Shown: one piece after another, positions 5,817 to 20,233 of the stretch
Layout of the letters: every line of letters starts with the position of its first letter
How positions within the stretch are numbered: position 1 is the first letter of the stretch
Origin: a virus
DNA length: 21,875 bases
Reading direction: 5' to 3' (one strand)
IMG/VR virus record: IMGVR_UViG_3300011114_000827
Span: 1 to 21,875 of that record
Position numbers and translations under genes: made by a program
Notes under the pieces: model-generated
What the model was told of the DNA's origin: nothing
The model's input: the letters and a program-made list of their open reading frames with translations, nothing else
Databases searched by the model: none

Positions 5817-6409
5817 TGAAATTCGTAAAAGATAACATTTTGTTTATAGCCGTAATGCTCTTTGTGTTATGGCTATATTTTTTGCTTAAACCTAAGCAAG
5901 ATGATAAAGTAGACTTTAGTAATATTAAGTTTACCAAAATACTAACGGTTCACGATACTACGTACAAAACATTGCACGTTAATACGTACAAGAAGGGGAA
6001 TGATATACCATTCTATATCATTGATTCAGTACAGATTCCTGTACACGATACTTTATACGTATTATCCGATTATATGCGTATATATGCGTATTCTGACACT
6101 ATTAGAAAAGATAGTAATATCTTTGTAGTGAATGATACTATCAGCCAAAATAGGATCATTTCAAGAGGATTCAAAGCCAATTTAACCGAAAAAAGCATAA
6201 TTAAGAGAGAGTACTACGCTAGTAAACCGACTAATACCCTTTATTGGGGCATTAGAGGCTCATACAGCCCACTTAATGGCTTGGAAGTACTAAGTCCTTC
6301 CTTAATGTTAAGTGTCAAAAATAAGGCTCTAATAGGCTTTAGCGTAGATATTAATAAAAATTATAATATTGGGTACTCTGGTAGTATCTATTTTAAAATA
6401 GGTAAATAA
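5816..6409 (+). CDS. Single-pass membrane protein, candidate spanin
   Basis: A 197-residue protein with one N-terminal membrane segment (residues ~7-24, NILFIAVMLFVLWLYFLL) behind a short basic end, then a long polar, presumably periplasmic domain with two 'HDT-Y' motifs (VHDTTYKTL near 45-53 and VHDTLYVL near 76-83). The last ~55 residues (from YWGIRGSYSP) are alternating hydrophobic/polar strands ending in 'SGSIYFKIGK', resembling beta-hairpins of outer-membrane-associated proteins. Location between a small gene and two holin-like genes, just before the endolysin, suggests a role in the last step of lysis, linking or fusing inner and outer membranes. There is no lipobox, so a classical two-component o-spanin is not evident. 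Its stop overlaps the next start by one base. Confidence 0.5.
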   Translation: MKFVKDNILFIAVMLFVLWLYFLLKPKQDDKVDFSNIKFTKILTVHDTTYKTLHVNTYKKGNDIPFYIIDSVQIPVHDTLYVLSDYMRIYAYSDTIRKDSNIFVVNDTISQNRIISRGFKANLTEKSIIKREYYASKPTNTLYWGIRGSYSPLNGLEVLSPSLMLSVKNKALIGFSVDINKNYNIGYSGSIYFKIGK

Positions 6410-18856: not shown

Positions 18857-19016
18857 AAAAGGTTTTTTGGTGTGTTTGAAAATTAAAAGTAAAGAAAGTT
18901 TTTGTTATATAAAGGTTTTTGTCACAAATTTTTAGGGGATTTTTATCGCAGATTTTTGCTAGGTTTTTGCCACAGATTTTTGTAGGTTTTTTGGCATACA
19001 TAAGCCAATAAGTCAT
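18831..19016 (-). CDS. Doubtful small Lys/Cys repeat protein
   Basis: From the ATG at 19016 the frame gives 61 residues with three 8-residue repeats (KICGKNLA, KICDKNPL, KICDKNLY) coded by three 24-base units; an upstream TTG at 19064 would add 16 residues. Several differences between units are synonymous (ATC/ATT, TGT/TGC, AAC/AAT), which hints at protein-level selection. Against this, the region is T-tract-rich on the + strand, carries inverted repeats at the start codon and overlaps the next gene by 26 bases. It could be a DNA element without a protein. Confidence 0.35.
   Translation of the reverse strand: MTYWLMYAKKPTKICGKNLAKICDKNPLKICDKNLYITKTFFTFNFQTHQKTFYDYKIYIP
18898..18992. repeat. 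Phased T-tracts within 24-base repeats
   Basis: Eight runs of 5-6 T (+ strand) centre near 18901, 18918, 18931, 18942, 18955, 18966, 18979 and 18989, most 11-13 bases apart, i.e. close to the DNA helical repeat. The core is a 24-base unit present about three times. Phased A/T-tracts of this kind usually give intrinsically curved DNA. Confidence 0.65.
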
Positions 19017-19172: not shown

Positions 19173-19412
19173 TTATTTAGCCAAATATTCGAACCAACTT
19201 TTTTTATGTTTGTTGTAGGTGTATAAACTAGAACTATTTTGTAGCTCTATAAAATAACCTTTAAACATTGGGTATTTATTTGTAATGTAGTTGTAAGCCG
19301 TGCCGAAATTTGTTCTTATTACTTTCACCTGTTTTTTAGACTTAAGGATAAAAGAAAAGTCGTCGGTATAAGTTACGACATTAAAAAAATAAACATTCTT
19401 TAAAGCTGCCAT
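19173..19412 (-). CDS. Small protein, unknown
   Basis: A 79-residue basic, Tyr/Phe/Lys-rich protein, MAALKNVYFFNVVTYTDDFS then 'FILKSKKQVKVIRTNFGTAYNYI' and an aromatic C-terminus (SWFEYLAK). Likely a small alpha/beta domain. Its leader contains the tRNA-like element at 19434-19479. Function unknown. Confidence 0.6.
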   Translation of the reverse strand: MAALKNVYFFNVVTYTDDFSFILKSKKQVKVIRTNFGTAYNYITNKYPMFKGYFIELQNSSSLYTYNKHKKSWFEYLAK

Positions 19413-19433
19413 ATTATTTTGATTTGGTTTTGC

Positions 19434-19479
19434 TCGTTTGAGGGGATCGAACCCTTAAAGCCTCCGACAGGCCAAACGA
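19434..19479 (-). ncRNA. tRNA-like element lacking an anticodon arm
   Basis: On the - strand TCGTTTG (19479-19473) and CAAACGA (19440-19434) form a 7-bp acceptor-like stem. It encloses a D-arm-like hairpin GCCT-GTCGG-AGGC (19472-19460) whose loop has the usual GG, a TTTA linker, and a T arm AGGG-TTCGATC-CCCT (19455-19441) whose loop matches the TTCRANY tRNA consensus. The base after the acceptor is G (19433), then CA. There is no anticodon arm, so it cannot be a decoding tRNA. It sits in the 74-base gap between two early genes. It could be a degenerate tRNA, an RNase P substrate that processes the mRNA, or a tRNA mimic. Confidence 0.6.
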
Positions 19480-19486
19480 TCCTTTT

Positions 19487-20233
19487 TTATTCAACTACGA
19501 ATCCGCTTGTATCTTTTTTAGCTTTGCCCTTCGCAGTTAGTCCAACTACAACATTAATAGGGTCAAAATAGCGTAGATCGGTTAAATCTCCGTTTATAAC
19601 CTTAAAGCCGTTCCAAAATTTCGGTAATCCGTTTTTAAATACTACAGCTACATTACCGCCATTATTAAGAATCTCAATACATTTATTTTCGTTATTCTCT
19701 TTACGGCTAAATGTCAATTTATAATTAGTATTTTTATACTTATTTATGTAGTTAGGATTTGGTGTATAATCATAAAATAAAAGGGAACTATAAAAGGAAT
19801 CTAAAAAATCAATTCCGCTGTATCTTTTTAATAGATCTAGGTGGTCAATGTCGGAGGTGCCGTTTAATCTAATTGCTATTTTTACGTTCTTTTTAATTGT
19901 CTTATCTAGGATTCTTAAAATTTCGTTGGCTAATTGTAAATAAAAGGCCGAACGATCAAAGCCCCAAAACTTTGTTTTGTTTATTCTAGCTAATTGAACG
20001 TTGCTAAAAATACCCATCCCTGCAGTATTTAAACAACCTTTAATACAGCCACTAGAGGCAAAAGGACAAACATTAAAGCCGCTCAAATTGGCAGGTGCCA
20101 AATAAAGTATAAACGTCTCTAATTCATTTTTAATTGTTTTAGCGTTGGTTGATCCTTTGCTTAATAAGTTCTTAACAGCTTTGTATGTTGTAGCTGTTTT
20201 AGATTCTGTTGGTAATAATGTTGTAGTTGACAT
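19487..20233 (-). CDS. GP88-like protein with Cys cluster
   Basis: A 248-residue protein resembling the phage GP88 / DUF7227-type family. Residues ~46-90 hold 'NLSGFNVCPFASSGCIKGCLNTAG' region with C56, C63 and C67 (C-x6-C-x3-C), then 'NVQLARINKTKFW'. Later blocks are 'IAIRLNGTSDIDHLDLL' (119-135) and the C-terminal 'GDLTDLRYFDP' and 'VVGLTAKGKAKKDTSGFVV'. The three-Cys cluster in an alpha/beta protein recalls iron-sulphur or radical-SAM-like enzymes, but the classical CxxxCxxC spacing is absent. The activity is unknown. It is one of the first genes transcribed in the leftward block and is followed by the tRNA-like element. Confidence 0.6.
   Translation of the reverse strand: MSTTTLLPTESKTATTYKAVKNLLSKGSTNAKTIKNELETFILYLAPANLSGFNVCPFASSGCIKGCLNTAGMGIFSNVQLARINKTKFWGFDRSAFYLQLANEILRILDKTIKKNVKIAIRLNGTSDIDHLDLLKRYSGIDFLDSFYSSLLFYDYTPNPNYINKYKNTNYKLTFSRKENNENKCIEILNNGGNVAVVFKNGLPKFWNGFKVINGDLTDLRYFDPINVVVGLTAKGKAKKDTSGFVVE

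Follow-up and report, generated by a model that had tools for sequence, protein, structure and literature searches.

Why should a phage keep, between two of its early genes, an RNA that has the arms of a tRNA but not the one that reads codons? The question arises in the window, by which we mean the whole stretch of 21,875 nucleotides of viral DNA that was analysed (IMG/VR record IMGVR_UViG_3300011114_000827). The gap of 74 nt between the stop codon of a GP88-family gene and the ATG of a gene for 79 amino acids holds, on the minus strand, a tRNA-like three-way junction of 46 nt without an anticodon arm (19479–19434), which starts 7 nt past the GP88 stop and is followed 21 nt further on by the next start codon. 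The initial annotation had placed a tRNA-like element between these early genes; the element is borne out, and its strand is corrected here to minus. The features of the region, in minus-strand order, are as follows:

19487–20233, minus strand: upstream gene of the GP88 family, 248 aa (PF17338, E = 4.3e-33; PHROG 1617, E = 1.2e-66)
19480–19486, minus strand: spacer of 7 nt between the GP88 stop and the element, where most relatives have a terminator-like hairpin
19473–19479, minus strand: 5′ strand (TCGTTTG) of the 7-bp acceptor-like stem, pairing with 19434–19440
19460–19472, minus strand: D-like arm GCCT-GTCGG-AGGC, its loop closing 3′ with GG; four pairs, all covarying
19456–19459, minus strand: linker TTTA, 4 nt, in place of the anticodon arm; 3–5 nt in all 33 sequences compared
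19441–19455, minus strand: T-like arm AGGG-TTCGATC-CCCT with a 4-bp stem; four pairs, all covarying
19434–19440, minus strand: 3′ strand (CAAACGA) of the acceptor-like stem, pairing with 19473–19479
19430–19433, minus strand: tail G-C-A-A, in the register N73-C74-x-A76 of a tRNA; the second base is invariably C
19413–19433, minus strand: A-rich unstructured leader of 21 nt, tail included; 20–22 nt in 28 of 29 loci
19173–19412, minus strand: downstream gene of 79 aa from the open reading frame list, with no Pfam or PHROG match

RNAfold returned this same three-way junction as the minimum free energy structure (−15.6 kcal/mol). The folding energy alone is unremarkable (z = −0.76), so the case for the element rests on comparison. 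A descriptor asking for a 7-bp acceptor, a D-like hairpin with GG in its loop, a T stem of at least 4 bp, a TTCRANN loop and no room for an anticodon arm had one match in the real window and, over 2000 shuffles that preserve dinucleotides, four matches altogether, a rate of 0.002 per window. The tRNA detection that the initial annotation had advised came back empty: ARAGORN reported neither a tRNA nor a tmRNA in the window, Rfam 15 gave no family above its gathering threshold in the window and nine relatives, and at the element no Rfam model, that of tRNA included, matched even to E = 10. The arms stand in the order of a tRNA, but the test for an anticodon arm and its 7-nt loop was negative, which is why the element is not classed as one; lacking an anticodon, it cannot decode codons. 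The open-licence literature that we searched gave no description of such an element.

Relatives were gathered as GP88 homologues from IMG/VR contigs, and the element follows GP88 in dozens of them, in 33 distinct sequences. Arms in the same order lie behind the GP88 stop both in close relatives (~69–100% identity) and in a separate group at ~55% (L024–L029). The covariance search that had also been advised recovered the element behind GP88: a model built from 17 sequences has a single strong match, on the sense strand, in each locus or genome and matches divergent copies weakly, exactly at the expected place (L025, L119, L110, L027, and L187–L189). Weak matches of the model also occur elsewhere (L163, L126, and L061, of which L163 does not have the tRNA order), and a pattern scan of viral contigs returned unrelated matches too (L068).

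The pairs covary. Compensatory double changes occur in 9 of the 15 pairs of the 17-sequence alignment. Its covariation score of 0.504 compares with 0.167 for shuffles, none of which, out of 500, scored as high; the signal collapses when the partners are slid by one column, and RNAalifold, unprompted, predicts the same 15 pairs. Among the 33 distinct sequences, 492 of 495 pair cells are standard (489 Watson–Crick and 3 G-U), the remaining 3 are of other kinds with no A-C among them, and double changes appear in 13 of the 15 pairs. Since this larger alignment was made by hand and fitted to the structure, the 17-sequence count is the safer number; copies with an ATCGAAT loop (L108, L110, and L267) were excluded from the 33 because their D arm could not be placed with confidence. 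The acceptor, the loss of either arm of which in relatives the initial annotation had named as grounds for doubt, is paired in all 33 sequences, with double changes in 5 of its 7 pairs, and the D stem takes the forms GCCT/AGGC, CCCT/AGGG, ACCT/AGGT, CCTA/TAGG, and TTAG/CTAA. Three G-U cells and no A-C cell in the sense reading speak against an RNA made from the antisense strand, although the difference is one of three cells only. At the level of sequence, this comparison confirms a genuine conserved RNA structure of about 46 bases, and the arrangement first described, with acceptor, D and T arms following one another as in a tRNA and no anticodon arm, is conserved in the relatives.

The loops show which parts of the tRNA form are held. 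There are two loop types. In 24 of the 33 sequences the T loop is TTCRANN and the D loop ends in GG; in two separate groups (7/33) the T loop is AGCRANN and in the remaining two sequences CTCRAAA, and the D loop then reads, for example, UNGA or AGG. T-loop positions 3–5, C-R-A, are invariant, and every sequence has a G within the last two D-loop positions, so that a pair of the G19-C56 type is possible in every copy, and we infer that this tertiary elbow pair forms. The earlier proposal that the T loop and the D-loop GG would permit a tRNA elbow thus agrees with the relatives, while the T-loop consensus that it took as diagnostic stands only at C-R-A: 9 of the 33 sequences differ from TTCRA at loop positions 1–2, i.e., positions 54/55 are not UU, and U54 and U55 are not required. 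U1-A72 is also invariant, as is the C at the second tail base (C74 register; 33/33). The likeness of the 3′ GCA to part of NCCA holds for C74, which is kept in a conserved tail N-C-(A/G)-A, and fails for C75, which is not kept. The acceptor and T stems, estimated at first as a stack of about 11 bp, add up to 7 + 4 = 11 here and in most type I copies, and to 12 bp, the tRNA value, where the T stem has 5 bp, as in L027 and several type II copies; the copies with 12 bp are L187, L251, L263, L264, and L027. No copy has an anticodon arm.

Between the GP88 stop and the element, most relatives carry a terminator-like hairpin, whose end is 2–8 nt away from the element and in many only 2–4 nt; the window (L001), L003, and L004–L006/L118 have no hairpin there. 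The stretch from the last pair of the element to the next AUG measures 20–22 nt in 28 of 29 loci (36 nt in L027), a spacing that is constant although the leader sequence and the N-termini of the downstream gene differ, and shared ancestry explains part of it. The L025 genome keeps the element with no ORF nearby, and some GP88 phages (L190–L201) have no early element. The element is present in single copy, within an mRNA, and none of the remaining gene starts of the window is preceded by a tRNA-like leader of this sort.

Other identities for this stretch were considered and rejected. An intrinsic terminator does not fit a three-way junction followed by an A-rich leader with no U tract; a Bacteroidota promoter (TTTG ... 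TAnnTTTG across the element) does not fit because its TA part changes along with the T stem, whose pairing is preserved; and a Shine–Dalgarno GGAGG in the D arm is replaced by GGTAGG or UNGA in other copies.

The small ORF after the element (19173–19412 in the window, and in relatives) has exchangeable N-terminal parts and a conserved C-terminus, (K/H)SWFEYLAK and similar. Unrelated structured RNAs occupy the GP88 junction in L013, L017, and L122–L152, with GGTCCAGG..CCTGGACC hairpins and GAAA-loop hairpins whose stems seemingly covary. A non-coding gap of the early operon at 18900–19000 of the window carries repeated short stretches like AGGTTTTTG/CACAGATTTTTG.

The neighbouring protein and the likely host were also examined. 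GP88 has invariant residues C56, C63, C67, R122, N124, D128, Y154, D155, D216, and D219 among 69 sequences, and its AlphaFold model is confident (pLDDT 89); as this model has no fold match in the PDB below E 0.001, GP88 does not explain the RNA. Bacterial genomes searched for GP88 gave one distant copy only, which provides no prophage context. No DNA similarity to named phages was found, and the best terminase matches include named Bacteroides and Flavobacterium phages at ~35% identity. From a promoter box described below, the A-rich leaders and these terminase matches, we infer that the host is probably a Bacteroidota.

Other tRNA-like RNAs stand before genes in these phages. The first late gene encodes 64 aa, and its leader lies directly behind a Bacteroidota-type promoter box, TAGCTTTG, read with TAnnTTTG, which we take to be the Bacteroidota promoter consensus. 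A script scored 16 of 47 distinct leaders at this late site as containing a tRNA or tRNA-like RNA, one of which (L368, AT-rich) is probably spurious, and 31 as having none. These RNAs end 12–14 nt before the ATG, with a tail that is nearly always N-C-A-A, and ARAGORN calls them Leu, Trp, Arg, and Thr tRNAs and "tRNA-???" with 2- or 4-nt anticodons; the early element shares with them the N-C-A-A-type tail and the placement before a start codon. The late leader as such is variable (L325–L378), being near-leaderless, a hairpin ACTTGGT..ACCAAGT, or differing tRNAs or tRNA-like RNAs 13–14 nt before the ATG, with examples in L349 (1318–1489), L351 (1302–1489), L359 (1410–1489), and L369 (1417–1489). 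A distant GP88 phage, L249, provides an independent case: a tRNA-like RNA without an anticodon arm (6313–6374), whose D and T arms are canonical, ends 10 nt before an ATG. A longer tRNA-like RNA, seemingly without one arm, lies 19 nt before another early ORF in L321, the parent genome of L009 (9962–10047), and a tRNA-Leu-like RNA lies 27 nt before an ORF in L324, the genome of L025 (19642–19749); ARAGORN calls neither of these two.

For the early element itself, the comparative context favours a role in processing or as a leader over that of a decoy. The reading that we favour, with belief and doubt nearly balanced and doubt slightly the heavier, is that of a tRNA-like punctuation mark which does not decode and which RNase P of the host, its RNase Z, or both would cut. 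The early transcript would carry a pseudo-tRNA with an acceptor/T stack of 11–12 bp, a short D arm and a tRNA-type elbow, whose anticodon arm is absent because nothing reads it. Recognising the elbow and the acceptor stack, host RNase P would cut the polycistronic transcript on the 5′ side at 19479/19480 and RNase Z on the 3′ side near 19433/19432, which would separate the GP88 mRNA from the downstream early mRNA; the latter would begin at the element, or just past it, with the short A-rich leader.

Such recognition has precedent. RNase P gauges the stack of T stem and acceptor with the elbow as its reference, and cleavage is expected of RNAs that present this stack, as happens to the tRNA-like RNAs of MALAT1 and MEN-beta; the enzyme needs a T loop or one resembling it but can do without the D loop, and RNase Z also clamps the tRNA elbow (PMC4919913). 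The RNase P RNA of E. coli cleaves model hairpins made of an acceptor stem, a T stem and a T loop, and the C4 RNA of phages P1/P7 is a natural phage substrate of the enzyme (PMC11143913). The element presents a coaxial acceptor/T stack of 11 bp with a T-type loop, and what is kept in all 33 sequences, namely the loop C-R-A, the D-loop G, the 7-bp acceptor and C74, fits enzymes that measure elbow and acceptor, while the variable or absent parts (stem sequences, loop positions 54/55 and the anticodon arm) are those that such enzymes do not need. The layout of the element, a tRNA shape that separates two genes and directly precedes a start, is also that of tRNA punctuation, with L025 as the exception, and the late-site tRNAs with N-C-A-A tails before a start, together with the armless RNA of L249, support a processing mark.

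Several observations count against processing. A hairpin 2–4 nt upstream in many relatives leaves the RNase P protein hardly any single-stranded leader to bind, and U1-A72 instead of G-C and the missing C75 do not suit RNase P. The 11 stacked pairs, rather than 12, of most type I copies, and the loops without UU at 54/55, weigh in the same direction. The short-leader arrangement is not universal, as L025 shows, and neither the 31 late leaders without a tRNA nor the GP88 phages without the early element use such a mark.

The constant spacing of 20–22 nt makes a role as a leader or at the ribosome the main rival. Here the uncut element would be a cis-acting 5′ leader of the next gene, positioned where a ribosome engaged in initiation has its upstream boundary; there it might insulate the A-rich leader from upstream RNA, block degradation from the 5′ side, or dock on the ribosome (e.g., on the L1 stalk) and aid initiation in a host not reliant on Shine–Dalgarno sequences. 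We consider this unlikely, but it accounts for a distance held while the leader and the downstream N-terminus change; the plain hairpins of the distant L013 and L017 lie at the same junction, ~16 nt before the AUG, and binding of tRNA elbows by the L1 stalk is established (PMC4919913). The 36 nt of L027 and the element of L025 without a nearby ORF do not fit, and no second gene start in the window uses such a leader. Moreover, a plain hairpin would insulate as well, which leaves the conserved elbow unexplained unless the ribosome is contacted.

Less probable again is a small RNA acting in trans, a stable mini-tRNA of 46–50 nt that would be excised and would occupy host tRNA-binding enzymes or a defence protein as a decoy, its position in the operon being incidental. 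The tRNA-like maturation features on both sides of the element, its retention in the L025 genome and the several odd-anticodon tRNA-like RNAs of this phage group agree with this. Present once only, as part of an mRNA and in many cases preceded by a terminator-like hairpin, such an RNA would however be limited in amount, an RNA without an anticodon loop could not bait anticodon nucleases, and the fixed distance to the AUG is left unexplained.

We regard as very unlikely a processive antiterminator with a role like that of HK022 put RNA, in which the element would modify RNA polymerase past the GP88 hairpin so that the long early operon is transcribed. Its position near the start of the early operon, right after a terminator-like hairpin in most relatives, would suit this role, but the element comes after the terminator and not before it, the window and L003–L006 have no hairpin there, and the early strand has weak terminator-like sites only; to our knowledge, put RNAs are not tRNA-shaped.

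We give almost no credence to a decayed tRNA gene, or the tRNA part of an attP, without present function: T arms and 3′ acceptor strands of tRNAs are common attachment sites and some late-site relatives are real tRNAs, but the compensatory changes in 13 of 15 pairs require selection and contradict it, an attP core would show a conservation of sequence that is missing here, and a full-length tRNA occupies the site in none of the relatives, the case in which the initial annotation would have seen a decayed copy of a tRNA kept by others.

Returning to the punctuation reading, the early element and its late counterparts may belong to one class of phage pseudo-tRNA punctuation, an idea that we hold tentatively, with doubt plainly ahead of belief: non-decoding tRNA mimics, anticodon-less or anticodon-scrambled, just upstream of genes, which would either be excised by host tRNA maturation enzymes so as to define mRNA ends or dock by their elbow on the ribosome and drive initiation in hosts that make no use of Shine–Dalgarno sequences. 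If processing is true, these phages use host tRNA maturation enzymes as mRNA cutters by means of a 46-nt tag; if action on the ribosome is true, the element is a bacterial tRNA-mimic leader. Either way, it represents a new testable RNA family of uncultured Bacteroidota phages that tRNA finders and Rfam have missed.

Known systems each resemble the element in part. Mitochondrial tRNA punctuation likewise places a tRNA-shaped RNA between genes, right before a start codon, but uses real decoding tRNAs, whereas the element is a non-decoding mimic for which cutting is proposed only. With the C4 RNA of P1/P7 it would share being a phage RNA cut by RNase P, which is proven for C4 and proposed here; C4 is an antisense repressor and is not tRNA-ordered, whereas the element has the tRNA order with D and T arms. 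The MALAT1 and MEN-beta RNAs are also tRNA-like parts of a longer transcript with a reduced anticodon region, and the RNase P cleavage known for them is proposed for the element; they are eukaryotic, terminate a long noncoding RNA on its 3′ side and retain a small anticodon-like arm, whereas the element lies in a phage operon between genes and has no such arm. The tRNA-like structures of plant viruses are viral mimics of part of a tRNA as well, but they are 3′ terminal, aminoacylatable, have a pseudoknotted acceptor and often an anticodon-like region, whereas the element is internal and lacks that region. The tRNA-like domain of tmRNA has an acceptor and T arm, no anticodon arm and an elbow contact; tmRNA has a large inserted domain with a tag frame where the element has a linker of 3–5 nt, and the element is one piece of 46 nt with a D stem and no tag frame inside. 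Canonical tRNA shares the 7-bp acceptor, the GG-type D loop, the TTCRANN T loop of most copies and the N-C-x-A tail, and the element departs from it in the missing anticodon arm, U1-A72, an often 4-bp T stem and the absence of a connector between acceptor and D stem. In the element, a tRNA fold is selected without its anticodon arm, so that the half concerned with processing and recognition is split from the decoding half in a natural RNA.
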